Assembly: GCA_022870745.1 (NCBI GenBank)
Contig: CP085323.1
Location: 2,108,001-2,172,000, forward strand
Reading direction: 5' to 3'
Origin: Silvibacterium acidisoli
GTDB taxonomy: Bacteria > Acidobacteriota > Terriglobia > Terriglobales > Acidobacteriaceae
DNA: 64,000 bases
The notes below the pieces were generated by a model, which saw nothing but the letters and a program-made list of their open reading frames with translations, did no database searches and had not been told where the DNA came from. Positions 43,566 through 58,180 of the stretch are shown in pieces (position 1 is the stretch's first letter; each line of letters begins with the position of its first letter). The translations under genes were made by a program, and so were the position numbers.

Positions 43566-44222
43566 TCACTCCAGGCTAATGCGCATCTTCTTCAGGAACT
43601 GCGTATCCGGGTCGGAGAGCGGCAGGAATACCCCCTCCGCGGATTCCGCTAAAGAAGGTTCTGTCCTGCGAGGCACCCGCGCGTAGCAGACTGAGGTCTC
43701 TTCGGGCGCTGTTTCTCGCGGATGCACATGGGCATATGCCGAGAGGTCAAGGCAGATTCGTAGTTCATAGCCTGCGTTTTCAATCACTTTCGCCATTCTC
43801 TCGAATGCCCCATTGGCTTGCACGGCTTCGCTGATGATCTTTTCGAGATCGCGGCAGTGTGAACTTGCGGCAAGAACGGCCGTGGCTGCGTCCAGCATTT
43901 CCTTCATGAGAGGTTCACTCGTGGCTTGGGTGATTTCCTCGAGGTGGGGAGCATCGGAATGGCCTGACTCCGGATCTTCCAGGGGCAGCGCCATAACGGT
44001 TTCTCCTGTATGTACCTGGATACGTATCCGCGGCTTCAAGGAGGCAAAAACACGCATTCCACGGTCGCGGAACGCACGCATAGCGATTCTTACTTTGCGA
44101 TTACTATCTATCTCGCATTTCAGTACGTGAAGCGCTTCGAGAAAAGATGCATCGGTCGAAAGTGAGATTTGCGCTTCATCTTCCATTTTCTGCAACAACC
44201 AGCGTAATTTGTTACGGTCCAT
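43566..44222 (-). CDS. Hypothetical protein
   Basis: A 218-residue soluble protein without signal or membrane segments. Acidic and helical in the middle (EEITQATSEPLMKEMLDAATAVLAASSHCRDLEKIISEAV) and with a beta-rich part before (RDRGMRVFASLKPRIRIQVHTGETVMALPLED). I do not recognise it. The ATG 44222 (MDRNKLRWLL) has CAGGGA three bases upstream; the longer reading adds 22 residues. A 7-bp hairpin (TCGTTAG / CTAACGA, 43508-43532) follows the gene. Confidence 0.6.
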   Translation of the reverse strand: MDRNKLRWLLQKMEDEAQISLSTDASFLEALHVLKCEIDSNRKVRIAMRAFRDRGMRVFASLKPRIRIQVHTGETVMALPLEDPESGHSDAPHLEEITQATSEPLMKEMLDAATAVLAASSHCRDLEKIISEAVQANGAFERMAKVIENAGYELRICLDLSAYAHVHPRETAPEETSVCYARVPRRTEPSLAESAEGVFLPLSDPDTQFLKKMRISLE

Positions 44223-44591
44223 AGTCCCTGCTTCTGCCTCCACCAACGCACACTCCGAGTCGGGCCCCCGTGGAAGCGGTCGCGGCATGATTGCCGCCTG
44301 GATGCCATCGTGAGAAGCGAATCCGAGTCAGGTAGGAGCCAGACAACCGCTTATCCGTTCTGTAGCGGTTTCAGGTGTGAATACTTCGGATACTTATGCT
44401 TGCCTACACGGATGCGGCCTGATGGTAAGTGGCTGCCCAGCCTCTAACAATTTGAGTTACACAGCTATAAGTCCTTTCATCTGAGCGGGTGAATGTGTAA
44501 CTCAAACTAGTGACTACCCTGGTAACACTGTGGCGGCATAGAATCCGCCCGCGGAGCGTGGAGCCACGGGCACGGCCCAAAGGGGGAAAAC
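44223..44591. other. 369-base control region upstream of gadB
   Basis: No gene is seen. It lies between the divergent hypothetical gene and gadB and contains the long inverted repeat listed separately. The last bases give the gadB ribosome site AAGGGGG. Confidence 0.6.
44451..44506. promoter_or_regulatory. 13-bp inverted repeat upstream of gadB
   Basis: TTTGAGTTACACA (44451-44463) and its perfect complement TGTGTAACTCAAA (44494-44506) are separated by 30 bases, so the arm centres are 43 bases (about four helical turns) apart. This is too long and too far apart for a simple terminator and fits a pair of sites for a dimeric regulator, 86 bases before the gadB start. Confidence 0.55.
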
Positions 44592-45986
44592 ATGGCGGTG
44601 CATTCCAAGCAGGAGATCTTTCCCGCCCTGGACGAGGAAGTATCAGGCGGCAGCTTTCTGGAGCACCCCCTGCCGAAGTACCGGTTTCCTCTTGAGGAGA
44701 CGGAGCCGGCCCCGGCATACCAGCTGGTGCATGATCAGCTCCTGCTGGACGGTAACTCGCGGCAGAACCTGGCTACTTTCTGCCAGACGTGGGTCGAGCC
44801 CGAGGTGCGCCAGTTGATGGACGAGTGCCTCGATAAGAACCTCATCGATCGTGATGAATATCCACAAACTACGGAGCTGGAATCTCGCTGCGTCTACATG
44901 CTTGCCGACCTCTGGCATTGTCCCGATGCAGCCAATACGCAGGGTTGCTCTACGACCGGTTCCAGTGAAGCAGCCATGCTTGGCGGGCTGGCGATGAAGT
45001 ATCGATGGAAGAAGAGGCGGCAGCAGGAGCACAGGCCGACGCATCGCCCTAACCTCATCTGTGGACCTGTGCACACCTGTTGGCCGCGATTTGCGCGCTA
45101 CTTCGACGTGGAATTGCGGCAGGTACCGTGCGTTGGAAACCGGCTGTTGATGTCTCCCGAAGAAGTTCTCAAGCGTTGCGATGAGAACACGATCGGAGTG
45201 GTGCCCACCCTGGGCGTTACCTACACGCTGCAGTATGAGCCGGTGCATGCAATCGCGTTGGCGCTCGATGACTTCGAAGAGGTGCACGGGATCGACATCC
45301 CGATCCATATCGATGCTGCGAGTGGCGGCTTTACCGCACCGTTTCTCCATCCTGCAGTGTCCTGGGATTTTCGCCTTCCGCGAGTGCGTTCGATCAATGT
45401 CTCCGGACATAAGTTTGGATTGTCACCGCTGGGATGCGGATGGATCGTGTGGCGCACCAAGCGCGATCTGCCGGAAGATCTGGTCTTCGATGTGAAGTAT
45501 CTCGGCGGACACATGCGCAGCTTCGCGCTCAATTTTTCGCGCCCTGGAGGACAGGTCGTAGCGCAGTACTACAACTTCATTCGACTGGGTAGAAAAGGCT
45601 ATACAAGGATTGCGAAGAGCTGCCAGGCGGTGGGCTCGTGGTTCGCTGACGAGTTGCGCAAGTTCGAGATCTTCGAGTTGATTTACGACGGAAGAGACGG
45701 CCTGCCCGGCTGTACCTGGAGCATCAAGCCGGGCGAGTACCCGCGATTCGATCTGTACGATCTTGCGGATCGCCTGCGAGGCAAGGGCTGGCAGGTGCCT
45801 GCTTATCCCATGCCGCCGCATCGCACCGATCTGGTTGTACAGCGCATGGTCTCGCGGTTAGGAGTGAGCCGCGACCTGGCCGGCTTATTGATGGACGATC
45901 TCCGCCAGGCGGTTCGATTTCTCAGCAGCAGCCGCGCCAGGCCTTCGGTGGGTGTTGAAGCGGCCAGCGGATATCACCATATATAG
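44592..45986 (+). CDS. gadB: Glutamate decarboxylase
   Basis: A 464-residue PLP enzyme that decarboxylates glutamate to GABA, consuming a proton; a cytoplasmic acid-resistance function in other bacteria. It aligns with GadA/GadB over the full length: ARQNLATF-like [78 protein letters not shown], and the PLP Lys274 in [13 protein letters not shown]. No GABA antiporter (gadC) is next to it. It precedes the unusual gene cluster and is separated by a 126-base gap with two palindromes, so it may share regulation rather than transcript. Confidence 0.95.
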
Positions 45987-46047: not shown

Positions 46048-46112
46048 TGGCGCCGGTCTCGTCTTCCATCTTATTTTCGCTCCGTATGGATCAACCCCAA
46101 GGAGGTTACACC

Positions 46113-47141
46113 ATGGCGGACCTGCATGAGGGCGAACTGGAGATGGAACTGGAAGATGAGTTCCATGAGGGCGAACTCGAAAGCGAAGACGAATCGAGTC
46201 TGGAAGGCGAAGGCTGGCTGGGCGCCATAGGCAACATCGCCGGCAGCCTGCTCGGTGAAGGCGAAGAGGAGCTTGAGGATGAGAGCGCTTTCGAGATGGA
46301 AGACGAGAGTTCGTTCGAGAGCGAAGAAGAGCTCGAGGATGAGTCAAGCCTGGAAGGCGAGGGCTGGCTGGGCGCCATAGGCAATATCGCCGGCAGCCTG
46401 CTCGGTGAAGGCGAAGAGGAGTATGAGTACGAGGCTTTCTTTGAGTCAGAGGATGAAGGTGAGCAATTCTTCGGGAAGATAGGCAGATTTCTAAAGAAGC
46501 TCCCGCTCAAGAACCTGGTCAAGACTGCTCTTCCGCTTGTTACCGGAGCCATCGGCGGTCCGTTTGGTGCAGCATTGGGTGGCCTGGCGACAAAGGCTCT
46601 TGGCGAAGGCGAATTTGAATACGAGGACGAGGCAGAGGGAGAGCGCGAAACGGTTCACGAGATCGCCGCTCACGAGCTCAGCCATCATGAAGCGCTCGCC
46701 GAAATCATGGCGGAAGCCGCTTCGCACGAGGTGCACGAAGGCGAGGCCGAGGCCATGGTGGGTGCGGCCACGATTACGGTCATCTCACCGAGAGACCGTC
46801 GTGCGCTGCGCCGTATCCTTCCACACCTTGTTCGGGGCACTGCGATCCTCACTCGCATCCTGCGCCGCCGGAAGGCGACACGTCCGATGGTTCGCGTGGT
46901 GCCGACGATCATACGTCGCACCGTAAAAGACCTGAAGAAGCAGGCCGGCCGGGGGATTCCGATTACGCGCAGGCGTGCTGCCATAGCGGCTGCAAAACAG
47001 GTGCGCCGCGTGCTCGGCAGCCCGAATGTTTGCGCGGCAGCTATCACTCGCAACGTAAAGGTGAGCAAGGCTTACAAGCGGCCTGCACGCCGCAACACAC
47101 GCACATCCACAGCGCGGCGCCGCCAGGGCGCGCTGCGCTAG
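46113..47141 (+). CDS. Charge-segregated acidic-repeat protein 1
   Basis: A 342-residue protein in three zones. Residues 1-115 are very acidic (ELE, EDE, EGE) and contain two copies of a 50-residue unit with SSLEGEGWLGAIGNIAGSLL; the DNA repeat (46201-46271 and 46351-46421) has two differences in 71 bases. Next is a hydrophobic glycine-rich segment (TALPLVTGAIGGPFGAALGGLATKAL). After an acidic/His stretch the C-terminal 110 residues are strongly basic (RRALRRILPHLVRG, RILRRRKATRP, VPTIIRRTVK, TRRRAA). No signal peptide is present. The start 46113 has AAGGAGG seven bases upstream. I do not recognise a characterised family. The next gene encodes a paralogue. Confidence 0.75.
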   Translation: MADLHEGELEMELEDEFHEGELESEDESSLEGEGWLGAIGNIAGSLLGEGEEELEDESAFEMEDESSFESEEELEDESSLEGEGWLGAIGNIAGSLLGEGEEEYEYEAFFESEDEGEQFFGKIGRFLKKLPLKNLVKTALPLVTGAIGGPFGAALGGLATKALGEGEFEYEDEAEGERETVHEIAAHELSHHEALAEIMAEAASHEVHEGEAEAMVGAATITVISPRDRRALRRILPHLVRGTAILTRILRRRKATRPMVRVVPTIIRRTVKDLKKQAGRGIPITRRRAAIAAAKQVRRVLGSPNVCAAAITRNVKVSKAYKRPARRNTRTSTARRRQGALR

Positions 47142-47187
47142 CATCGGCCCCTGCAGTTTTCGAACATCCGTGGAGGAGGAACCCGTT

Positions 47188-48081
47188 ATGGCATTCGATT
47201 CCGAGGTAATGCACGAGCTGGAAGAGGAGTACTCCGGAGAAGGCGAAGAGGAGTACGAAGACGAATCCAGCTTGGAGGGAGAAGGCTGGCTGGGTGCGAT
47301 CGGCAACGTGGTAGGCAGCCTTCTTGGCGAGTCCGAAGGTGAGGACGAATATGAGTCCGAGAGCGCCTTCGAGGCTGAGGGCGAGCTTAACCCCATGCGT
47401 AAGATCTATCCCGATGCCATGATGGAACACCTGGGTGAGCTGGCGGCCGAGGCAGAGTCTGAAGAAGAGGCTGCTGAGCATTTCCTGCCGCTGATCGGCA
47501 TGGCTGCTTCGAAGCTGCTGCCCGTGGTTGCGAAAGCGATTGCGCCCGCTGCCAGGAAAGCGCTTCCAAAGATCGCCGGTGCAGTCATGAGGTCATCGCC
47601 CAGGCTCACGAAGGGCATTGGCAGTATCGCGAAGACACTGCATCGCAATCCGCAAACGCGCTATCTGTTGAAGACCGTGCCCACGATTGCGCGACGCACA
47701 GTGGGTTCTATTGCGAGGCAGGTTACGCATGGCAGGCAAGTTACTCCGCAACGGGCCGTGCGCACGCTGGCGAACCAGGCGCGATATGTGCTTGGTCACC
47801 CGCAGCATCGCAAGCATGCTTTGCGCCGCCACAACCGCCTGGAGCAGACCTTCCATCGCCGCTTCGCGCGCGGCATGGTTCGCCCCCACGGGCACATCCA
47901 GTACCGGTATCAGGGCCGTCCAGTTCCGGGTCAGACAACTACGTATTACGCAGCCGGAGGTGTACAGGCGCCTGGCAGCGTGACCTATGGACAGCGGACC
48001 AGTACCGGGCAGTGCGCCTGTGGATCCGGTTCCAGTCCAGCGCCTGCCTACTGCCGCTGCTGCGGACAGGTGCTGAGATAG
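47188..48081 (+). CDS. Charge-segregated acidic-repeat protein 2 with Cys C-terminus
   Basis: A 297-residue paralogue of the preceding protein. The N-terminal 60 residues are acidic with one copy of SSLEGEGWLGAIGNVVGSLLGE; a hydrophobic Ala-rich helix region follows (FLPLIGMAASKLLPVVAKAIAPAARKALPKIAGAV); then a basic part that aligns with protein 1 (VPTIARRTV; VTPQRAVRTLANQARYVLGHP). Different from protein 1, the C-terminal 70 residues are Tyr/Gly-rich and end in CACGSGSSPAPAYCRCCGQVLR, five cysteines that could bind a metal. No signal peptide. The ATG 47188 follows GGAGGAGGA by seven bases. Function unknown. Confidence 0.75.
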   Translation: MAFDSEVMHELEEEYSGEGEEEYEDESSLEGEGWLGAIGNVVGSLLGESEGEDEYESESAFEAEGELNPMRKIYPDAMMEHLGELAAEAESEEEAAEHFLPLIGMAASKLLPVVAKAIAPAARKALPKIAGAVMRSSPRLTKGIGSIAKTLHRNPQTRYLLKTVPTIARRTVGSIARQVTHGRQVTPQRAVRTLANQARYVLGHPQHRKHALRRHNRLEQTFHRRFARGMVRPHGHIQYRYQGRPVPGQTTTYYAAGGVQAPGSVTYGQRTSTGQCACGSGSSPAPAYCRCCGQVLR

Positions 48082-48110
48082 GCAAGTCATCTTTTGACGA
48101 GACCAAGACC

Positions 48111-49448
48111 ATGGCGACACTAGTGGAACAAATTCCGATCGCGAAAGAGGACGCGCCGGCCCAGCCATCCAGGACTCAAGCGGCAGCAAGGCCTACAGCC
48201 TTCCTCGCGCCATGGTTGCGATCTCAATCCATTAATGTAAATCGGCATGCTGCTGCGCTGCGGCCATTCAAGGTAGATGAGTTCGGCAGCGGAGCGGAAG
48301 CGCCCACTCCCGGCCATCTGCAGGTGGTCAACGAATTGATCACCCAGCTTCGCGGCGGCCTGCTCAAGATGTCAGGAAAAGTCGGCGATTCTGTCGCTGC
48401 CGCCCTGCAGGAGCCAACCACTGCGCGTTTGCAGGATGTAATGCGTAAGAAGGAACGCGCGCACACCTGGGTGCGAGGGATCGAAAAAATCTGGGACTTT
48501 TATTTCGAGGTGTTTGGCCAACGGCAAAGCCGTTTCGCGAAGTGGCTGCTGAGTTGCGACCGCATCGGTCTCGACTGCTATCGAACGAGCTACCTGGGCC
48601 TGGCGGTTGCGCGTTCAATCCCGGCGCCACCTCCCTTTTCGTATGTAGCGACGGGCTTTTCTCCGGCGACCTTTCGACGCGGCATTCCCTTAAGGCGATT
48701 GGGAAAACAACTCAATCCTTTTCCGCTCATTCAGCTCCCCTACCATCGGCTGGTCAATCCATGGACGCTGGGTGGCGTTCTGCACGAGGTGAGTCATAAT
48801 CTGCAGAACGATCTGGGGCTGGCGCGTGATGTTCCCCGCAGCATCGGGCTCGCGCTGTTGCGCGCGGGAGCCAGCAGGAAGGTCGCACGCATCTGGGTGC
48901 GCTGGAATCGGGAGATGTTCTCCGATATGGCCGGCCTGTTGCTCGGTGGACCGTCCTTCGCGGCATCATCGATGGACATTCTTGCGCGTGGGCCCGAAGC
49001 CACTGTTCACTATAGTTCGCGAGGCCCCCATCCCACGCCCTATCTTCGTATGTTGATCAACGCAGAGCTGCTGAGGCGCATGGGCTTTGAGTCGGAGAGC
49101 AGGCAGATTCGAAATGCGTGGATGCGGATCTATCCCAAACCGTCTTCCGGCAACATTCCGGCTGAGCTGATGAAGACCTTTGCGGAAGCGTGTCCGATCG
49201 CCGTGAATGCGGTGTGCTATCAGCCGTACAAATCGTTGGGCAACCGGAGCCTGTCGAAGGTCATGAGCTTCGGTCACAAGGAGCAACAGATGATCGAGGA
49301 AGCGTCGCGGCGGCTGGCGGCCGGAGTCGACCCGGGAATCATCCCTGAACGCTTCCTCATCGGTGCGGTGCGGCTGGCGCTGGATCGCCGTCATGCCCGC
49401 CCCGAGGTACTGACCAGGAACTTCTTCAAGGCACTCGCGAGTGGATGA
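48111..49448 (+). CDS. Putative gluzincin-type metallopeptidase
   Basis: A 445-residue soluble protein without a signal peptide. GGVLHEVSHNLQNDLGL holds the HExxH zinc motif at residues 225-229, and 43 residues further on WNREMFSDMAGLLLGG supplies a Glu in an ExxSD context (Glu268), the third-ligand pattern of thermolysin-like gluzincins. The surrounding helices are hydrophobic enough for an M4/M48-like core, but overall similarity to a named family is not evident to me. The N-terminal 70 residues are disordered (Ala/Pro-rich). It is 29 bases after the second repeat protein and 3 bases before the next gene. Confidence 0.65.
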   Translation: MATLVEQIPIAKEDAPAQPSRTQAAARPTAFLAPWLRSQSINVNRHAAALRPFKVDEFGSGAEAPTPGHLQVVNELITQLRGGLLKMSGKVGDSVAAALQEPTTARLQDVMRKKERAHTWVRGIEKIWDFYFEVFGQRQSRFAKWLLSCDRIGLDCYRTSYLGLAVARSIPAPPPFSYVATGFSPATFRRGIPLRRLGKQLNPFPLIQLPYHRLVNPWTLGGVLHEVSHNLQNDLGLARDVPRSIGLALLRAGASRKVARIWVRWNREMFSDMAGLLLGGPSFAASSMDILARGPEATVHYSSRGPHPTPYLRMLINAELLRRMGFESESRQIRNAWMRIYPKPSSGNIPAELMKTFAEACPIAVNAVCYQPYKSLGNRSLSKVMSFGHKEQQMIEEASRRLAAGVDPGIIPERFLIGAVRLALDRRHARPEVLTRNFFKALASG

Positions 49449-49451
49449 ACG

Positions 49452-50012
49452 ATGGGAATGAATACCACATTTCGAGAGTTGTGCAGGCAGTTGAAGAGCC
49501 TGAAGGAAACGCTGGATGGGCTTCGCTGCCTGCTGCCCGACGATCCGTTGAATACGGAAGTAGTGTTGATGCGCCATCTGCGGGAGAGTGTGGACAGTGT
49601 GAACGGCTGGCTGGACGATTGCGTCGCCCAGTCGCAGATTGCCTGCGCAGCATTGGAGCAGGCGTCGGACATAAATGATTCGCGGAGAGCTCTGACCCAA
49701 TGCCAGGCCAGTTTTGACGAGGCCGAGCGCGCATCTTCGGCGGAGCTGCTCACTTACGAGAAGTTGCGCGAGGTTGTAAGGCTGGGAGGCCAGCGCAAAG
49801 GGATATGGATCATCTGGTCACAGAACACCAAGAGAGATCTCGAGAGCTGCCGCTATGAACTGTACCTTACGCGTAAAGCGATGACCGCGTGTTGGCAGGA
49901 ACTGGCAGAACACGCTGGGATGAATGGAGCTTTGCGGACTCCCGACGTCAGGCAGCGGATAACAGCCGCGGCATCGGGTATCGGAGATATGGAAGTCGAG
50001 GGCGCTCCGTGA
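49452..50012 (+). CDS. Hypothetical helical protein
   Basis: A 186-residue, mostly alpha-helical protein with coiled-coil character (FRELCRQLKSLKETLDGLRCLL; RALTQCQASFDEAERASSAELLTYEKLREVV) and several Cys. No signal peptide or membrane helix except a short hydrophobic patch GIWIIWSQ. Not recognised. Three bases after the metallopeptidase stop, so very likely co-translated; it might be a partner or inhibitor of that protein. Confidence 0.65.
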   Translation: MGMNTTFRELCRQLKSLKETLDGLRCLLPDDPLNTEVVLMRHLRESVDSVNGWLDDCVAQSQIACAALEQASDINDSRRALTQCQASFDEAERASSAELLTYEKLREVVRLGGQRKGIWIIWSQNTKRDLESCRYELYLTRKAMTACWQELAEHAGMNGALRTPDVRQRITAAASGIGDMEVEGAP

Positions 50013-50105
50013 GCAGCATGAAAGCAAATACGGACGAGTAAAAGGATGCAGCCAGGCTAGAAGGATCGCAACGTCAAGCTTCAGACCGGTGGAAGGAGCT
50101 ACAGT

Positions 50106-52409
50106 ATGCCAACCCAACCGACCGTTTTAAAATGCAGCGCAACGGCCAACACTGTCACGATCACATTCTCCGAGCCGGTGGATGGGGTGAGCGCGAGCGC
50201 GCCTGACAACTACACCATCTACGCTCCGCCGAAGATAACGGCACCAACGCTGCTCTCGAAATTGGATTGGACGGGTCCGGTTGTATCAGCCGATGCTCGT
50301 TCCGTCGTGTTGACTCCCGCTTTGGCTTTGACACCCGGCGGTTTCGTCCTGGTCAACGTAAAGAATGTTATGACGGCTTCGGGCTCGCCCTTTGAAACCG
50401 GCGATGTGTCCGCAGAGGTTCCGCCTGCGGCCGGTCCGGGACGGGTAGTAAGAGATGTGGAAGATGCGATCTCGTATCCCATCCTCACGGAGGAAATCAG
50501 CAACCGCCCTTCCCCGGTCAGCACGCTCCCTGCAGGGAGCGGTATGGGTGGAGGCGGAGGTAGCTCCCCGCTCGGGCAGCTGGCATCGAGGACGGTGACG
50601 GATGTTCTCGGCTGGAAGGTGAACCCCTCCGACCCGAAGGGCTTCGTGGGCGCACTGACCCAGGCTTTTACATTGAGCGACGTGGAAGGCCACGTCGAGG
50701 CGACCTGGAACCCGCAGATGCCGGCCATCCAGACGGATCTTGGCGGCTCGATTACCGGCGCGCAAGCCAGCCTCTACACCCGTGCCAAGGCTGCCATCGA
50801 TCAATCGACTTCCCTGCTGGATACACTCTATCCTCTCGATCCTGAGGCTGATCCGGAATACGTCAAGGCTCTGCGCGAGATGGTACGAAGCCAGATGACG
50901 CAGATCGTGCGGGAGCTGTCGGTGATAGGGCTTCCCTCAGTGCTGCGCATCGACACATACTTCTCCATCCTGCTCGGGCAGAGTCCGGCTACCATCTCAA
51001 CCGGGCAGATAACGTTTGATCCGGATGCGGTGGGTGGCACGATGGGCAAACTGCGCGACACCTATGGAATCCAGTTCGTCGGCAATCCCTTCAACAACTC
51101 CGTGGCAGACGAAATGGTCATCACCAACTTCCGGGTAATTTCCGACTATCTCACGTCGCTGCTGCAGAGCTGGATCTCTAACCGCAGTTTCTTTTACGTG
51201 CTGCCCGATCAGCCTGCCTTCTTTGGAACGCAACTGGTGCTTATCTCGCGGCAGTTCAACGTGATTGCCGAGACGGTGAACGAACTGCGCTTCACGCTGG
51301 ACTCCGTCTTTATCGGGCCAGCTGAGCGGCAATCGCTGCTGCTCATATTTGGAGATCCGGCGCTGCCTCCGAGATTCCTGGAGGGTATGTTGCTTGAGAT
51401 CGAGGCCTTTGTCGGCGATGAGGGTCCGCGTCTTCTCAAGGATGGCGGCAAGATCACCGTTACCAACAATATCCTGCCGGTGGTCAGCGCCCTGCTGAAC
51501 ATGGTGACTAAGGCTCGCAAGCCGACCAACATCAATGAACTGCCTGACGGATTCAAGACGGCACGTGTACGCAATTCGCTGCGTGACCTGCAGGATCAAC
51601 TCAGGCGTCTGGTCGAACTTGTCGAACAGGTGGAACAGGAAGTGCCTGCTTCCGAGTTCAAGCTGTCGGTCTCAAGCATCGTGTCGCAAGGGACTGACGA
51701 CAGCGGTAACGCCACGATCTCTATCTTTGGTGAAGGTTTTGCGCCAGGCATAGAGGCGACGGTCCATTCCACAACACCAATCGTCATTCCGCAGACCCAA
51801 ACGAACTTCTTTTCTGCTGAGCGGGTCGACATCGTATTCAACATAGTCTCTTTCGGCGATGGATTGCATGACATCACCCTGACAAACCCGGACGGCGATT
51901 CCATAACCGTGGCGGATGCCTTCACGCTGGACGAAGGAGTTGTGCAGCCGGATATTGTCAGCCGCAGGCAGGTCTTTTGCAATCCGTTGTTCCGCGTTCG
52001 CGCATCCAGCGCGAAGCAGGACGCAAAGAAAGCCGCTTCTTCGGGGAAAAAGCCCGCCTGGAAGGTAATCGTCAATCCCGGCGCGGGTCATAGCCAAACT
52101 AAAGCAAGCGCTGCGCAGGTAGCCGCGATGTCTACCCACCCTGCTACTCCGCAGTCTTCAAGCTTCTCCAACCCAGTATCGGTTCAGCAGCAGGAAGCAG
52201 CTCAAAAGGATCTGGCGGATCGGGTGCAAAATCATGCGCACAGCATTGCAAATCTTAATCAGAAGATGGAAGAAGGGTTCAAGCATTTGACGAATACCAT
52301 GCACGAACAACTCGGCATGTTGCACGAGAAGCTGGCGCAGCTTACCGGGAAAGGGCCGGGCCAGCAGGATGAAAGTCGTCCGCCGTCTGGGCAGGAGCAG
52401 GGTACGTAA
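50106..52409 (+). CDS. Large Big_5/IPT-domain protein of unknown function
   Basis: A 767-residue protein. Residues 5-105 form a bacterial Ig-like Big_5 domain (TVTITFSEPVDGVSASAPDNYTIY, then RSVVLTPALALTPGGFVLVNVKNV). A glycine-rich linker (GSGMGGGGGSS) leads to a large helical middle part (about 200-500) that I do not recognise. An IPT/TIG-like beta domain is at about 535-620 (ATISIFGEGFAPGIEATVHS; LHDITLTNPDGDSITVADAF). The C-terminal 150 residues are Ala/Gln-rich with a coiled coil (ANLNQKMEEGFKHLTNTMHEQLGMLHEKLAQL). Big_5 and IPT domains are usually extracytoplasmic, yet no signal peptide is present. AAGGAG stands eight bases before the start. Confidence 0.7.
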   Translation: MPTQPTVLKCSATANTVTITFSEPVDGVSASAPDNYTIYAPPKITAPTLLSKLDWTGPVVSADARSVVLTPALALTPGGFVLVNVKNVMTASGSPFETGDVSAEVPPAAGPGRVVRDVEDAISYPILTEEISNRPSPVSTLPAGSGMGGGGGSSPLGQLASRTVTDVLGWKVNPSDPKGFVGALTQAFTLSDVEGHVEATWNPQMPAIQTDLGGSITGAQASLYTRAKAAIDQSTSLLDTLYPLDPEADPEYVKALREMVRSQMTQIVRELSVIGLPSVLRIDTYFSILLGQSPATISTGQITFDPDAVGGTMGKLRDTYGIQFVGNPFNNSVADEMVITNFRVISDYLTSLLQSWISNRSFFYVLPDQPAFFGTQLVLISRQFNVIAETVNELRFTLDSVFIGPAERQSLLLIFGDPALPPRFLEGMLLEIEAFVGDEGPRLLKDGGKITVTNNILPVVSALLNMVTKARKPTNINELPDGFKTARVRNSLRDLQDQLRRLVELVEQVEQEVPASEFKLSVSSIVSQGTDDSGNATISIFGEGFAPGIEATVHSTTPIVIPQTQTNFFSAERVDIVFNIVSFGDGLHDITLTNPDGDSITVADAFTLDEGVVQPDIVSRRQVFCNPLFRVRASSAKQDAKKAASSGKKPAWKVIVNPGAGHSQTKASAAQVAAMSTHPATPQSSSFSNPVSVQQQEAAQKDLADRVQNHAHSIANLNQKMEEGFKHLTNTMHEQLGMLHEKLAQLTGKGPGQQDESRPPSGQEQGT

Positions 52410-52495
52410 TCCTGTGTCAGCGGCAATCGCACGGTAACACGCGACGTTAACAATTTCCTGGGACGAGCGCTGGAGAGCATCGAGGAGGGTCATCC

Positions 52496-53668
52496 ATGGC
52501 GACCGAAAGAGATTATCAAGGTTTATATGACCGTATCGCAGCGTTACGAGAACAGGTAACGAACAAGCTGTCCGCGGACCTGATCGCCAACCCGCAACTC
52601 GCAGATGCGCTTACCAAACAGATCGACGATCTTCTGATCGCGGTGGTCGATGCCGATGCCAAAATCCCTCCTCCACCGGACAAGGGGCTGGCTGCGCTGG
52701 CGGGCGTAGGTCCGGACGCCTCCAGGGAGTTCGGCACTACGCGTGTTCCACCCGGCGTCGAGCCTTATGACGAGACGATCACGTCGGAACGCATCATGGC
52801 CGTCGGTGATATGTACTATCTCTGGCAGCACGAAAAGATTGGCGTCTTCCGTGTGGTACAGAAGCTGCAGGAACTGTTCAAAGCAGGAACCGTAAGGCTT
52901 TCGGGCGGTCCCGGAGCATTCGCGCTCTATCAGTTCGATCGGCGTGACGTGCTTCGCTATACCAAGTCTGACCGGCTATCGGCCTACAAGCGCATCTTCG
53001 GGTATGGTGGCTCGCCGGTGCCCACAGGTTCGCGTGCCAACGCAGACTTTCACAAGCTCTTCGCTCATTTTGTGCACCAGGTCACGCTGTTCTGGCGCGA
53101 TAAGCGTATCTCTGACGTAATTCGCGAGCGCGCTTACGACCCGAGCTTCGGTTCCATCGCCATCGTGCGGCGCGCGGGCCTGGACCTGCGCAACAACCTG
53201 AAATGGCTTTCGTTCGGCCACCTGAATGTGCTGCGTGTGGAAGTGATGCAGTTGCTGGAGGAAGCATTCAACATTCTCAACTCCGACGATGTAAAGCGGC
53301 TCTTCGGCGCCGATAACGCATGGGATGTTGTAGAAGAGGTCCTGATCCGCTACTTCAACGAGCGGCTCGTGACTTCTCCACGCCAACGCATGGGTGTGAC
53401 AGGCAGAGATATTCTGCGCTGGCTCGCGCAGCCGCACATCCTGCAGACAACACGTTCGCAATTCGAAACCCTGCTGCTTGAGATTGCGGAGCAATCAGAA
53501 GAATGGCTCACCAGTGCGCAGGCCATGGGGTTGAGCACGCGGACAGGATCGCATCGCGTGCTGCCCTGGGATCAGACACAGCCTACTCCGGTACGACCGT
53601 CGCACAAGCAAAGGGTAGGAGTCTCGGCAACGCGCCAGCCCGCGCGCGAGTACGAACTTCAGCTCTGA
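52496..53668 (+). CDS. Hypothetical protein of the repeat-protein cluster
   Basis: A 390-residue soluble protein. Mostly helical: the N-terminus has a short coiled coil (YDRIAALREQVTNKLSADLIANPQLADALTKQIDDLL), the middle is aromatic-rich (FGYGGSPVPTGSRANADFHKLFAHFVHQVTLFWRDKRISDVIRERAYDPSFGSIAIVRRAGLDLRNNLKWLSFGHLNVLRVEVMQLLEEAF), the end is Pro/Arg-rich. No signal, no zinc motif. Not recognised. Strong ribosome site (GAGGAGGG). It may be a structural partner of the preceding large protein; this is inference from position only. Confidence 0.65.
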   Translation: MATERDYQGLYDRIAALREQVTNKLSADLIANPQLADALTKQIDDLLIAVVDADAKIPPPPDKGLAALAGVGPDASREFGTTRVPPGVEPYDETITSERIMAVGDMYYLWQHEKIGVFRVVQKLQELFKAGTVRLSGGPGAFALYQFDRRDVLRYTKSDRLSAYKRIFGYGGSPVPTGSRANADFHKLFAHFVHQVTLFWRDKRISDVIRERAYDPSFGSIAIVRRAGLDLRNNLKWLSFGHLNVLRVEVMQLLEEAFNILNSDDVKRLFGADNAWDVVEEVLIRYFNERLVTSPRQRMGVTGRDILRWLAQPHILQTTRSQFETLLLEIAEQSEEWLTSAQAMGLSTRTGSHRVLPWDQTQPTPVRPSHKQRVGVSATRQPAREYELQL

Positions 53669-53770
53669 ACTGCGAAATGATCCTGCGGAATGACCAAACC
53701 TGGTCGTCCGCAGGGTCGCCCGTTTCAACAGATGCTGCACGCAGCCTTGCAAGGAAAGCGGAGACAGAGC

Positions 53771-54022
53771 ATGAACGATCTTTTCACCAGGAGTAGTGCA
53801 GTCAACGGCGCGCGTCCCATTACGGCCTCGCGCTACAACTCGTTCTCAGGCATGAATACCTCGCGCCAGGATAAATTCCAGGCACGAGAGCAACGCCGCT
53901 GGGGAGACTGGGCATACTGGGAGATTCCTGCGCCTGTTCTCTGGCTGGAAACGCCCTACGTGCTGTCGCCCTTCGATGACACCCTGTTTGTTGCGCCTGT
54001 CTTCGTGGATATCTGGGATTAG
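53771..54022 (+). CDS. Small aromatic protein (83 aa)
   Basis: An 83-residue protein whose C-terminal half is rich in Trp, Tyr, Phe and Pro (RRWGDWAYWEIPAPVLWLETPYVLSPFDDTLFVAPVFVDIWD). The N-terminal half is Ser/Arg-rich and probably flexible. The ATG 53771 follows GGAGA at a normal distance; a longer reading to 53690 overlaps poorly coding sequence. No family known to me. It sits seven bases before the next gene. Confidence 0.6.
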   Translation: MNDLFTRSSAVNGARPITASRYNSFSGMNTSRQDKFQAREQRRWGDWAYWEIPAPVLWLETPYVLSPFDDTLFVAPVFVDIWD

Positions 54023-54029
54023 GTGAGCC

Positions 54030-54821
54030 ATGTACCGTAGTACAGAACCTGAACTCGAAGACGAACTCAGCAGCCTGATGGAAGCGCTGGTGAGAACTGA
54101 CCTGGAAGCGGAAGCCGAGGAGTACACGCCGGCTGCTACCGGCCCTCTCTTCGATGTTGCATGCAACGGCTGCGCCGCAGGGCAGTGTGTTGCCTGCCAG
54201 AGCGGAGCATGTACAGCCTGTCCGGTGGCTGGCGGAGGATGCCGGCGGATCGTCTTCGATGCGGTCGTCGAAGCGATCAAGCTCGCTCGCAGCACTGCAG
54301 ACAAGGTGGACGCAGCGACAGCCACATCAGCGGACTCGCGCAATAAAGAGCAGAAGGAAACAGCTCGCCTTTACAGATTCTTTTTCTGTCACGATCCTTC
54401 GTGGTTCATTTCATGGGCTGGCGGCCCGTCAGGCGCTACGGTCTCAACACGGCTCCGTGCCGTGGCAAACGAACTCGATGGAGGACGAAGACTTCTCTTT
54501 GAATGCCGCGCACAAGGCGGCTGCAACGCATTCACGATTCCGGGAGTTCACTCCACCGTATTTCTTTGCCCGCCTTTCTGGGCAACGCAGGGTTTGGCGG
54601 GCCTGCCCGAAGTGAATCGCCGTGCGGGGACCATTATCCACGAGATGTTGCACAACCTCTACGATCTGGACGACAGCCGACGGTTCAATAACCCGGCACA
54701 GCCGACGCCGCGGCGATTCGATGCGCATTGCTACGAGGTGTTTCTCCTTCGTGCCAACGGATACGGCGGAGATCCTACAGACGTAGCCGCATGTGGTCAG
54801 GCGCCTTGCGAGGTCTTTTGA
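54030..54821 (+). CDS. Putative M35-like (aspzincin) metalloendopeptidase
   Basis: A 263-residue protein. The N-terminus is acidic (STEPELEDELSSLMEALVRTDLEAEAEEY), followed by a Cys-rich patch with seven cysteines in 25 residues (CNGCAAGQC, CQSGACTACP). The C-terminal half has IIHEMLHNLYDLDD, an HExxH motif at residues 204-208, and then RFDAHCYEVFLL, which resembles the ADSYEyF-type third-ligand segment (Asp) of Lys-specific M35 peptidases. No signal peptide. The acidic N-terminus recalls the repeat proteins of the same operon and might be a common sorting signal. Confidence 0.65.
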   Translation: MYRSTEPELEDELSSLMEALVRTDLEAEAEEYTPAATGPLFDVACNGCAAGQCVACQSGACTACPVAGGGCRRIVFDAVVEAIKLARSTADKVDAATATSADSRNKEQKETARLYRFFFCHDPSWFISWAGGPSGATVSTRLRAVANELDGGRRLLFECRAQGGCNAFTIPGVHSTVFLCPPFWATQGLAGLPEVNRRAGTIIHEMLHNLYDLDDSRRFNNPAQPTPRRFDAHCYEVFLLRANGYGGDPTDVAACGQAPCEVF

Positions 54822-54853
54822 ACACGTATCTCTGAGCGTGAGCGGGCTACCAG

Positions 54854-56284
54854 ATGACGAAGAATCCCCATCGCGCTATCTCCTATGCACGATCGCATCA
54901 TGCGGAATTCCTTTCAGAGTTGAAGGAGTTTCTCCGCTTTCCAAGCGAGAGTTCGGAACCGAAGCGCGCAGCCGATGTTGGGGCCTGCGCGATCTGGCTT
55001 GCCCGTCATCTCCAGAAGATAGGAATGCGCCGGGTTCGCCTCATTCGCACGCAGGGCCACCCGCTTGTCTATGCATCCTGGCAACAGGCTTCCCGGGCGC
55101 CGGTGCTTCTCATCTACGGACACTACGATGTCGTTCCCGCCGCTCCTCTGGAACAGTGGGAGACGCCGCCCTATCGGCCTACGGTCAGAAATCAGAACCT
55201 GTACGCACGTGGCGCGTGCGACGACAAGGGCCAGCTATTTTGCCATGTGAAGGCCCTTGAGTCTGTTCTGCGCGCGCATCGCGCTCTCCCATTGAATGTG
55301 AAATGCATCTTCGAGGGAGAGGAAGAAATCGGCAGCTGCCATCTTCTCTCCTTCATCGAAAAACACAGGGAGGTGTTACGCGCGGATGTAGCTGTTATCT
55401 CCGACACAAAGATGCTGGACGCGCGAAGGCCGGCAATCAGCTACGCACAGCGAGGTGGATTACGCGCAGAGCTGGAAGTCCGCGGGCCCGGGCAGGAACT
55501 ACATTCGGGCACCTTCGGTGGAGCGGTGCTGAATCCCCTCCAGGCGCTTTGTAAGCTGTTGGCCGGTTTTCATGACGAGCGCGGACGAATCAACATTCCC
55601 GGCTTTTACGACGACGTGCGTAACTGGAGCGACGAGGAGCGTTCCTACATGCAGCAAGTCGGACCAGCAGATCGCAGGATTCTCGACGAGGCGCAAGTAG
55701 AGCATGGCTGGGGCGAGCAGGGATACACCGCCTACGAACGCACCACGATAAGGCCTGCATTGACGCTGAATGGTATCTCGGGTGGTCACGCAGGCAAGGG
55801 AGTGAAGGGGGTTGTGCCGGCAAAAGCCACTGCGAAGTTGAGCTTCCGTCTTGTGCCCGATCAGGATCCTCAGAGAATCGCCAGGATCTTTCGTGAGCAC
55901 ATTGCGCGGGCCTGCCCCTCGGCTGTGCAATGTACGCTGCGTCTGCAGGCACCGACTATGCCGGTGCTGTTCGAGCGCGATCATCCGGCGCTGCAAGCGG
56001 CCTCCATAGCCTACGAAAAAGCCTTTGGCAGTGCGCCTGTCTTTCTGCGCTCGGGCGGATCGATCCCGGTAGCGGGAGCTTTCCAGAAGGTCTTAAATAT
56101 TCCCGTCGTCCTGATGGGCTTCGGGCTTCCGGACGATCGCATTCACGGTCCGAACGAAAAGATGCATCTTCCCAATTTCTATCGTGGTATCGAGACATCG
56201 ATCCGATACATGAACCTGATCTCTGAGGCTATCCATCACGGAAACATCTCCCGGCCCGTCGAGGCAAGCGAGTGGGTCACATGA
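54854..56284 (+). CDS. M20 family metallopeptidase (dipeptidase)
   Basis: A 476-residue zinc exopeptidase of the M20 family. Seen: LLIYGHYDVVPAAPLEQWETPPYRPTV (first ligand His and catalytic Asp), LYARGACDDKGQLFCHVKALE (bridging Asp), IFEGEEEIGS (catalytic Glu and ligand), and VISDTKMLDARRPAISYAQRGGLRAELEV with a dimerisation domain after it (LHSGTFGGAVLNPLQALCKLL). It would hydrolyse dipeptides or acylated amino acids. Cytoplasmic. The stop overlaps the next start by four bases (ATGA), so the two enzymes are translationally coupled. Confidence 0.92.
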   Translation: MTKNPHRAISYARSHHAEFLSELKEFLRFPSESSEPKRAADVGACAIWLARHLQKIGMRRVRLIRTQGHPLVYASWQQASRAPVLLIYGHYDVVPAAPLEQWETPPYRPTVRNQNLYARGACDDKGQLFCHVKALESVLRAHRALPLNVKCIFEGEEEIGSCHLLSFIEKHREVLRADVAVISDTKMLDARRPAISYAQRGGLRAELEVRGPGQELHSGTFGGAVLNPLQALCKLLAGFHDERGRINIPGFYDDVRNWSDEERSYMQQVGPADRRILDEAQVEHGWGEQGYTAYERTTIRPALTLNGISGGHAGKGVKGVVPAKATAKLSFRLVPDQDPQRIARIFREHIARACPSAVQCTLRLQAPTMPVLFERDHPALQAASIAYEKAFGSAPVFLRSGGSIPVAGAFQKVLNIPVVLMGFGLPDDRIHGPNEKMHLPNFYRGIETSIRYMNLISEAIHHGNISRPVEASEWVT

Positions 56285-57126
56285 TCATCGATGCGCATTG
56301 CCACGCAGGAAAGGGTGATTTGATGACAGCGCCCTGGAACACGGATGCGCCGCTTACGGATTACCTGCGCCGTGCCTGCGCCGCCGGCATCAACAGAACG
56401 ATCCTGATGCCAGCCTTCCACACCGACAACTGGCAGGCCAACAGACAGGTCGCGCAGATAGTTGCCCGTCATCCCTCGCGCTTCATCGGCTTCGCTTTCG
56501 TGCACGCAAAGCGCGATGCCGGACGCATCTTTCGCATGGTAAGGCACGCAGTGGTTCGATGGGGCTTTCGCGGAATCAAGGTTCACGGATACGAAGCGAT
56601 GCCAACACGCGAAGTGTGCGAGACGGCGAGAGCTCTTTCGCTTCCAGTACTGGTAGATGTGGCCAGCCGCGCCGAGACAGTGGATATGTTTGCGCCTCAA
56701 TACCCCATGGTGAACTTCATCATTGCTCACCTGGGCAGTTTTACAGACAGTTGGAAGGCCCACGAGCAGGTCATCCATCAGCTGGCACGTTATCCGAATG
56801 TCTACGCCGATACTTCAGGGGTTCGGCAGTTCGATTATTTAGTTAGAGCGGTACAGATCGCGGGGCCGCGCAAGCTGCTATTTGGTTCGGATGGACCCTG
56901 GCTTCATCCCGGACTCGAGTTACACAAAGTGAAGCTGCTGGGCCTCAAGCCTCGGGATGAGGCGCTCGTACTCGGAGGGAACATCTCACATCTGCTCCGC
57001 GTTGCTAGTAGCGCTAGGCAGCTCGCGCCTCGCGTCGCAGGTGTTGGAGAGAACGATTTCGTAAAGACCGATAACGACGATCGGCAAAGGGAGCTGACTG
57101 GAGCGGGAGCGAAGTACAGGCTGTGA
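56281..57126 (+). CDS. Amidohydrolase_2 family metal-dependent hydrolase
   Basis: A 281-residue TIM-barrel hydrolase. MIIDAHCHAGKGD gives the HxH ligands; others are GIKVHGYEAMPT, VNFIIAHLGSFTDSWKAHEQ, VYADTSGVRQFD and LLFGSDGPWLHPGLEL with the catalytic Asp. The family covers decarboxylases and hydrolases of aromatic or imide substrates. The ATG 56281 overlaps the M20 stop. A possible job is further breakdown of the product of the M20 peptidase; this is inference from coupling. Confidence 0.88.
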   Translation: MIIDAHCHAGKGDLMTAPWNTDAPLTDYLRRACAAGINRTILMPAFHTDNWQANRQVAQIVARHPSRFIGFAFVHAKRDAGRIFRMVRHAVVRWGFRGIKVHGYEAMPTREVCETARALSLPVLVDVASRAETVDMFAPQYPMVNFIIAHLGSFTDSWKAHEQVIHQLARYPNVYADTSGVRQFDYLVRAVQIAGPRKLLFGSDGPWLHPGLELHKVKLLGLKPRDEALVLGGNISHLLRVASSARQLAPRVAGVGENDFVKTDNDDRQRELTGAGAKYRL

Positions 57127-57140
57127 CCGGCTGTTTCACG

Positions 57141-57578
57141 CTACCGATGATTCAGGAAGGCGTGGTGCTCTTTTCCAAGTGTGCCAAACTCCAATAGCTG
57201 CGCAACCATTGCGGCTCGCGAGCCTACACCCAGCTTGGCAAAGATACGCCGCAGGTGGGTGCAAACCGTCCAGGTGCTAATGCTCAGTACATCCGCTATC
57301 ACCTTATTGGGATGGCCTTGCGCGACCATTCTTACAATTTCTTGCTCTCGCGGACTTAGCTGCACACGGCCATAGACGGGCGGGTGCATGCGAATCACCA
57401 GGTACCTGAGGCCGTCCACTTCTGTATCTACAAGAACCTGCTCCGCCGCTTCATTCTCGACCTGGGACTGTTCTGTCTTTTCGATCAGGGACAGCAGATG
57501 CCGCATTGCTCTCTGTACAGAGCTTGAGTCGACTTCACGTGCACTTTCCAAGGGCGGGAATGGGGTACAGGTGTACAT
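57141..57578 (-). CDS. LuxR-type HTH transcriptional regulator
   Basis: A 145-residue regulator. The C-terminal half is a GerE/LuxR helix-turn-helix: VQLSPREQEIVRMVAQGHPNKVIADVLSISTWTVCTHLRRIFAKLGVGSRAAMVAQLLEFG. The N-terminal 75 residues form no recognised receiver or sensor domain. The ATG 57578 (MYTCTPFPPL) is preceded by AGGGAA; a TTG 21 bases further up is the alternative. It is convergent with the cluster, 14 bases from its last gene, and is the nearest candidate regulator of the cluster. Confidence 0.85.
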   Translation of the reverse strand: MYTCTPFPPLESAREVDSSSVQRAMRHLLSLIEKTEQSQVENEAAEQVLVDTEVDGLRYLVIRMHPPVYGRVQLSPREQEIVRMVAQGHPNKVIADVLSISTWTVCTHLRRIFAKLGVGSRAAMVAQLLEFGTLGKEHHAFLNHR

Positions 57579-58180
57579 ACAGATGTTCCCTATCTCCAAC
57601 AGGCGGGCCAGCTTCAGCAGGACATCTTACCCTCATGTCGGTTTCATTCTACTCTGTAGTGCTGGTTGTCCCATCCGGCCTTGTGTGTCTGTTAACGAGC
57701 AGAGCTTCGAATTGGGTAAGCCGAAACCGGATGTATAGTATTTTGCCGCTGCTTTGCGGCAATAGTCGCCTTTTCAAGTGACACTCGAACGAGTTTTAAC
57801 TCGCCTGCAACAGATGACTCTCAATCAACCCGCGGCAGTCACTGCTCGATTTGAATTCAGGCGCCGGTAGGTTATGTTCGGGTGCGGCCGATCCCCAGGG
57901 TCTCTCACGAAGAAAGCAACCGTGCGGTCACACCGCAAAGCCGAACGCAGGGCTTGCAGACAAGCGGACTGCAATACCTTGCATACTGCCTGTACCTCTT
58001 TTGGGCCGGAGAGAGATTCGAAGCCTCCGTTAAGCAGTTGAAAACAAAAATAGAAGAGTTTGATCTGAGAACACGAATACCCTCCAGGTCCTGTAACCAC
58101 AGTTTCTCTTCAACACTTCAGCCAGCTTTTTGCAGCCGTTGACATCAAGTTTCCCTGCCGTTTCCCACGCGGGATACTAT
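57579..58180. other. 602-base region with no convincing gene
   Basis: Several short frames of 60-90 codons occur on both strands. The plus-strand frame from a GTG at 57882 to 58142 ends in a helical, protein-like segment (FWAGERFEASVKQLKTKIEEFDLRT) but has no ribosome site, so I leave it unassigned. No tRNA-like structure or repeat is seen. Confidence 0.4.

Follow-up and report, generated by a model that had tools for sequence, protein, structure and literature searches.

A conserved gene cluster of soil bacteria that looks like an undescribed protein assembly loaded with exchangeable enzymes

A gene cluster that travels as a unit among soil bacteria

We analyzed a 64,000-nucleotide stretch of the Silvibacterium acidisoli genome (contig CP085323.1, positions 2,108,001 to 2,172,000; hereafter the window) and focused on a cluster of ten plus-strand genes, P1 to P10, at 46113-57126, which looks like an undescribed protein assembly loaded with exchangeable enzymes. 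The cluster is real and moves as a unit among distantly related soil bacteria. Its true core consists of P1 to P6, an M20 dipeptidase (P9), an amidohydrolase (P10) and a LuxR-type regulator, with P7 and P8 as occupants of a variable slot and not as core members.

A scan for P6 in 84,980 species genomes, which is a lower bound as it used two short peptide patterns, gave 22 loci, and a plasmid search added that of Paraburkholderia PGU19, for a total of 23 loci besides the window (loci and genomes are given below by working labels starting with L and G, respectively). L010 and L023 are the same contig, as are L011 and L024, and each pair was counted once. These relatives were found in Acidobacteriota, Paraburkholderia (on a plasmid), Nevskia, Armatimonadota, Streptomyces and Saccharopolyspora. 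Using tblastn with the window proteins on loci extending up to 10 kb from P6, we detected P6 in all 23 loci (P6 being the query that found them), P5 in 21, P9 in 20, P2 and P3 in 19 each, P1 and P10 in 17 each, and P4 in 16. Homologues of P7 and P8 were found in one and two loci, respectively. These counts are lowered because L018, L026, L029 and L030 start inside the cluster at a contig end. Gene order is conserved over four phyla. The three Saccharopolyspora loci gave a weak match or none to P1, and none to P4, P9 and P10, while the Streptomyces locus gave no match to P4 and P10. The initial annotation of this DNA had treated the first eight genes as a unit; since P7 and P8 are variable whereas P9 and P10 are conserved, these eight genes are not a natural one.

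Among 299 genomes of the class, strong matches to P6, P5, P3 and the Arg-rich domain of P1 and P2 fell in the same four (G000, G054, G132 and G262). The exceptions to this linkage were an isolated P5-like match in G101 (E 6e-33), a distant P6 in G209, six genomes with a distant P3 homologue and none of the other genes, and an extra P1-like gene in G054. A phylum-wide search with P3 over 297 genomes gave five matches, strong in G000 and G054 and weak in the other three. The outcome that would have spoken against a unit, genes occurring apart from each other, was thus not what we found, and the genes co-travel across four phyla. In a tree of P6, Nevskia groups with Bryobacteraceae (99/99), a placement that fits horizontal transfer, although its 24-kb contig (titled BOG_genome_mining) could be misplaced. 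A phage origin was considered and rejected: we found no P2 or P6 match in 50,697 phage records, and no P6 in viral contigs when searching with the two short patterns.

Regarding the layout of the cluster, the ten plus-strand genes are separated by gaps of -4 to 93 bases, confirming the tight arrangement previously described, and P9 and P10 overlap by a common ATGA at 56281-56284 (gap -4). A hydropathy scan (not SignalP) of the N-terminal 60 residues gave no signal-like hydrophobic stretch for any of the ten proteins, in agreement with the absence of signal peptides noted earlier for the first eight. A scan for promoters and terminators gave no signal exceeding that of shuffled sequences. The earlier gene inventory had overlooked the LuxR/GerE-type regulator, which is encoded just downstream of P10 on the minus strand (57141..57599), convergent with the operon. 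It matches Pfam GerE with an E of 4.8e-17, and a homologue is present up- or downstream of the operon in 20 of the 23 loci, including those of Streptomyces and Saccharopolyspora.

P1 and P2 are charge-segregated paralogues

P1 (46113..47141) and P2 (47188..48081) are paralogous, scaffold-like proteins. P1 contains acidic repeats, which include two GWLGAIGN..GSLLGE modules, as well as a hydrophobic stretch rich in Gly and a C-terminal domain rich in Arg; in P2, a single GWLGAIGN module is combined with an Arg-rich domain, and a Cys cluster lies at the C-terminus. Residues 1-228 of P1 carry a net charge of -57 and the remainder +35 (z = 8.0 against 60 shuffles), and the parts of P2 on either side of residue 97 carry -32 and +32 (z = 6.6 against 200 shuffles). 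Across the 30 P1 and P2 homologues that were scored, charge segregation ranged from z 3.9 to 9.9, and two homologues from L017 have a C-terminal part with little positive charge. Both the paralogy and the segregation of acidic and Arg-rich parts, already proposed from the first inspection of the sequence, were thus borne out by comparison and shuffling.

The start of P1 at 46113 is preceded by an AGGAGG site; the list of open reading frames (ORFs) had placed it at 46086. Inspected by eye, P1 also contains a basic and hydrophobic stretch in the style of antimicrobial peptides. The Cys cluster of P2 (CxC...CRCCGQ, at 48007-48081) resembles a zinc site by eye, and a terminal Cys cluster was seen in the same way in 12 of 14 rows of the P2 alignment. 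Genome G054 also encodes, away from the cluster (L072:8731-10017), an orphan P1-like protein whose long middle part is rich in Gly and Leu.

Families and predicted structures of the core proteins

None of P1 to P6 matched any family above cut-off in Pfam or NCBIfam, so the alternative outcome in which each gene belongs to an unrelated known family was not what we found. P3 (48111..49448), read earlier as a gluzincin-like HExxH protein, gave no Pfam or NCBIfam match. The gluzincin signature is an HExxH motif with a downstream Glu in an ExxxD motif. In P3, the HExxH and the downstream E and D (NRExxxD) are invariant in 20 of 20 aligned proteins, the window protein included, and the putative gluzincin assignment holds at the level of motifs only. 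P4 (49452..50012) is a 186-residue protein with no family above cut-off.

P5 (50106..52409) comprises an S-layer/Big_5-like N-terminal domain, a helical core (residues ~218-507), a TIG-like domain and a C-terminal helix. Its previous description as a Big_5/IPT protein holds in part: the Big_5 and TIG matches stay below the Pfam cut-off by sequence, but the predicted N-terminal domain is SbsC-like. In an AlphaFold2 model with a mean predicted local distance difference test (pLDDT) score of 71, this domain aligns to the SbsC S-layer domain with a Z of 15.7 and a root-mean-square deviation of 1.7 over 100 residues. The matches of the fold search were filled by the immunoglobulin (Ig) domain and have no bearing on the helical core. 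The P5 of L024 does not have the SbsC-like N-terminal domain.

P6 (52496..53668), with 390 residues, is the most conserved member. Its C-terminus is made of alternating Glu and hydrophobic residues (EYELQL) in the window and in three homologues. The AlphaFold2 model of P6, built with 23 sequences, had a mean pLDDT of 41 and was unusable. As for the two conserved enzymes, both of which had been recognized from the start as an M20 peptidase and an amidohydrolase, P9 (54854..56284) scored 538 bits against the dipeptidase model NF006053 of NCBIfam (equivalog cut-off 441), and P10 (56281..57126) scored 78.3 bits against Amidohydro_2, PF04909 (cut-off 26.4).

We also compared the cluster with collections of defence and phage models. 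In PADLOC, none of nine window proteins (all ten except P7) matched at E ≤ 0.01, so they do not fit known anti-phage defence models. A PHROGs scan of seven of the ten proteins gave weak matches alone (P1, E 7e-4; P5, E 0.04), the one to P1 falling within its acidic repeats.

A variable slot, nine of whose proteins have a common N-terminal tag

The interval between P6 and the M20 gene was scanned in 21 loci, the window included. We found at least one long slot protein in 9 of them and an interval shorter than 310 bases in 12, among them L030, where a P7-like ORF was the only occupant. The slot is also empty in L020, the cluster locus of Silvibacterium bohemicum S15. In the window, the slot holds P7 (53690..54022), a small protein with weak homologues among the slot proteins of L015 and L018 and also in L030, and P8 (54030..54821), an Aspzincin M35 peptidase that we propose to be tagged cargo. 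P8 scored 37.2 bits against PF14521 (cut-off 30) and contains an HExxH motif in the form HEMLH, which places its earlier M35-like reading above the curated cut-off.

The occupants differ from locus to locus. Aspzincin M35 proteins were found in the window, L015 and L016, and M35-like proteins with an OmpA part in L016 and L024, with a related protein minus OmpA in L018. L015 also encodes a trypsin with an OmpA-related part; PG_binding_1 proteins are present in L015 and L017, and the slot protein of L025 combines OmpA and DUF4056. The slot proteins L015_d, L022 and L028 belong to no family.

An acidic, leucine-containing N-terminal tag could be aligned in 9 of the 14 long slot proteins (consensus MRxxELELExELExLMxxLxESDLESEAE), and tag-bearing proteins occur in six of the nine loci that have any long slot protein. 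In P8, the match to the tag profile corresponds to the first 33 residues (54030..54128). A score of acidity and hydrophobicity was positive for 12 of 19 slot proteins (12 of the 14 long ones) versus 5 of 115 others, including one encoded just upstream of the L028 cluster. The threshold of this score was set afterwards, and therefore the held-out models are the test to weigh. For these, we built tag models without one cargo group and ran them on a file of 425 sequences. The tags recovered per group were 3/3, 3/3, 1/1, 1/1 and 0/1, that is, eight of nine at E ≤ 1.2e-4, with L025 missed, and none of the other sequences in the file fell below E 0.08. With P8 and its two nearest relatives left out of the training, the model still detected the tag of P8 at E 2.3e-6.

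In the 299 genomes, the full tag model detected the slot gene in G000, G054 and G262, all of which are in the training set, and gave further weak matches in G062 (E 2e-4, within an ABC-F ATPase) and G015 (E 0.005). As a strict DNA pattern, the tag had no match in the window's own genome, and the profile was used instead. The idea that P1 and P2 also bear the tag was dropped, their best E being 7 with the full model and 0.08 in one held-out run. According to these results, the peptidase cargo suggested by the initial annotation stands as far as a variable slot with peptidases and a tag common to nine slot proteins are concerned, but the interval is shorter than 310 bases in 12 of the 21 loci.

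A proposed tagged-enzyme assembly and its alternatives

We tentatively propose a horizontally moved, LuxR-regulated operon for a protein assembly with exchangeable tagged enzymes, a reading that we regard as plausible while falling somewhat short of probable; the assembly itself, the binding of the tag to a scaffold, the control by LuxR, the site and the purpose are what we infer. Self-assembly and unusual export, put forward in the initial annotation, would be conjectural features of such a system. P1 and P2 would be polyampholyte scaffolds, in which short hydrophobic modules sit in acidic N-terminal blocks and the C-terminal domain is rich in Arg. P3 to P6 would form the fixed core, with a metallopeptidase, two proteins of no family and the Ig-like and helical P5, which may supply a surface or adhesive part. 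The enzymes encoded between P6 and the M20 gene would be cargo recruited via the N-terminal acidic/leucine tag, which perhaps pairs by charge with the Arg-rich domains of P1 and P2. Such cargo (aspzincin, trypsin-like, OmpA and peptidoglycan-binding modules) would have protein and cell wall as its targets, with the M20 dipeptidase and the amidohydrolase processing the products. The whole operon would be under the control of the LuxR-type gene, and its purpose could lie outside the cell, in attack or feeding, or inside it, in ordered proteolysis.

Several observations weigh against this proposal. No export gene was recognized, P6 has no assignable fold, and the Saccharopolyspora loci have no match to the M20 peptidase, the amidohydrolase or P4. 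The short interval found in 12 loci means that cargo there is absent or encoded elsewhere. Regarding the tag, its model misses L022, L017_b, L015_b, L028_b and L028_c and finds no cargo in G132, which bears the cluster; the N-termini of P1 and P2 resemble the tag by look, yet they do not match the model. The tagged cores are also partly dependent on each other, given that a distant relationship links the two M35 groups and an OmpA-like part recurs in several cores, and the two clearly distinct tagged proteins that held-out models recovered (L015_d and L015_e) come from the same locus.

Two rivals stand out, namely a cytoplasmic proteolysis body and a peptide maturation driven by P3. In the former, which we consider unlikely but worth keeping in mind, P1 and P2 would concentrate, under LuxR control, a chain of endopeptidases, M20 dipeptidase and amidohydrolase in a condensate or compartment for ordered proteolysis. 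Charge-segregated polyampholytes, the type to which P1 and P2 belong, are generally known as a kind of sequence able to phase separate. The ten proteins show no signal-like stretches, and the M20 peptidase and the amidohydrolase belong to the core, all of which is consistent with this body. However, the S-layer-like domain of P5, together with cargo that has OmpA or peptidoglycan-binding modules, points to the cell wall.

In the latter, P3 would cleave P1 and P2, freeing membrane-active peptides from their hydrophobic or Arg-rich stretches, and the other peptidases would be processing or immunity factors. The conserved metallopeptidase is indeed encoded directly behind P1 and P2, P1 has the stretch of antimicrobial-peptide style seen by eye, and pairs of a zincin and a precursor are described beside conflict systems in PMC7159879. 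Still, we find this scenario improbable: P1 and P2 have ~300-350 residues and a conserved Arg-rich domain, unlike a small and fast-diverging precursor, P1 to P3 gave no NCBIfam match, and P5, P6 and the tagged cargo would be left unexplained.

One could also argue for an acid-stress function in which the Glu-rich proteins are a store, degraded to glutamate for the GadB-like pyridoxal phosphate-dependent decarboxylase whose gene (44592-45983, plus strand) adjoins the cluster upstream. Homologues of this gene with 68-72% identity are present in 7 of the 23 cluster loci, but the other 16, of which at least four are cut by a contig end, have no GadB match. In a search of 41 related genomes, a GadB homologue was found in five, the window's own included, and a more distant copy (55-59% identity) in three. 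P3 to P6 and the tags would be left unexplained, and we deem this function very improbable. Finally, a loose neighbourhood of unrelated genes brought together by chance has practically no likelihood left and found no support, because the genes co-occur in the same 4 of 299 genomes with their order conserved in four phyla.

If the tagged-enzyme assembly is correct, it would represent an undescribed means, passed on horizontally among soil bacteria, of gathering or delivering varied peptidases and wall-binding enzymes by a single short tag. Directly testable predictions follow from the tag and the scaffold, and the tag might serve as a simple tool to attach enzymes to a scaffold.

Comparison with known systems

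We found no description of the cluster in the literature covered by our search, which comprised titles and abstract openings and had preprints and most subscription journals outside its scope. One likeness in organization is to the cellulosome, where a non-catalytic repeat protein is combined with different enzymes that have one common address module. In contrast, the tag described here is N-terminal, acidic and ~30 residues long, the enzymes are peptidases instead of glycosidases and there are no signal-like stretches; neither the ten proteins nor the scanned slot proteins gave a Pfam match to cohesin or dockerin, by which a cellulosome would be recognized. Exchangeable cargo bearing a short common tag is also reminiscent of cargo loading in encapsulins and extracellular contractile injection systems (eCIS), but a shell, sheath, tube, baseplate or loading ATPase was not recognized among the ten proteins. 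Parts of eCIS or type VI secretion systems were absent from the ten proteins by Pfam and from seven of them by PHROGs, with the flanks of the window cluster and related loci outside the scan; the lack of sheath, tube, baseplate and secretion ATPase stated at the outset is therefore upheld for the proteins covered by these scans. An HK97-fold shell, as in encapsulins, had no Pfam match among the ten proteins, P6 being a protein whose fold has no usable model.

P5 resembles S-layer proteins such as SbsC and Sap in its predicted N-terminal domain, which is folded like an SbsC domain. Unlike these, P5 has no S-layer homology (SLH) match in Pfam, SLH being the only anchor type examined, and no signal-like stretch by hydropathy. 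The peptidase-bearing conflict systems dependent on nucleoside triphosphates (NTP) that are covered in PMC7159879 are resembled by the setting of distant P3 homologues on rhizobial plasmids, which lie beside CHAT, other peptidase or patatin genes; the window cluster differs from them in having no NTPase match in Pfam. As for FxSxx-COOH peptide-processing systems, which pair a short FxSxx precursor with its zincin, P1 to P3 gave no NCBIfam match, the presence of such a model in the library being unchecked.

Distant relatives of P3 and P6

Distant clusters reuse the families of P3 and P6. The P6 family is found in clusters of Tolypothrix, Burkholderia and G209 (hhalign probability 99.4, E 1e-21), which collectively encode S8 and C70 peptidases, amidase and trypsin. 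These clusters resemble that of the window in the P6-family protein, a weak TIG match and the presence of cell-wall and peptidase enzymes, but have an S8 peptidase and other families lacking names in place of P3, P5 and the Arg-rich domain, none of which was matched in these loci at E 0.1. A relationship between P5 and the families of these P6-family clusters (branch B) was rejected (hhalign E 0.25 and 0.23).

The P3 family is present in G080, G194, G270, G357 and rhizobial plasmids, among others. In G080 an acidic protein precedes a P3 homologue (E 9e-30), after which come a weakly matching P6 homologue (E 6e-4) and an OmpA protein. It is possible, if rather doubtful, that the window holds a single subtype within a superfamily of enzyme assemblies addressed by tags. 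Its marks would be a P3-type metallopeptidase beside a P6-type protein and an acidic scaffold, with unrelated hydrolases entering via short common address modules. The same logic would be followed in Acidobacteriota by further subtypes, namely the G080-like one and clusters that have TPF/SPF motifs together with a docking-like stretch of another kind, with related P3 or P6 clusters in Cyanobacteria, Burkholderia and rhizobial plasmids, and the whole would be a delivery or surface machine without parts in common with known secretion systems.

A number of further loci were recorded along with these. Near P3 in G194 and G270 there are trypsin, glucosaminidase and OmpA enzymes with acidic stretches, some of them with a common docking-like stretch by eye. 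L078, L079 and L049 encode a P3-family peptidase together with proteins with TPF/SPF motifs (by eye), and in L078 and L079 a docking-like stretch seems, also by eye, common to unrelated hydrolases. In L012 and L013 (rhizobial plasmids) and L076, P3-family peptidases lie beside CHAT, S8 or C25 peptidase, patatin or very large proteins. L008, L009 and L042 carry a different conserved cluster, with P6-family proteins and a repeated family lacking a name in up to four copies, as well as genes for S8 and C70 peptidases, amidase and trypsin distributed among the three loci.

Other neighbours of the cluster in the window are less often found with it: the gene U5 has a homologue in 2 of the 23 loci, and D1 and D2 in none. 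A 240-residue protein encoded on the minus strand at 43566-44288 has distant homologues in the cluster loci L015 and L018.

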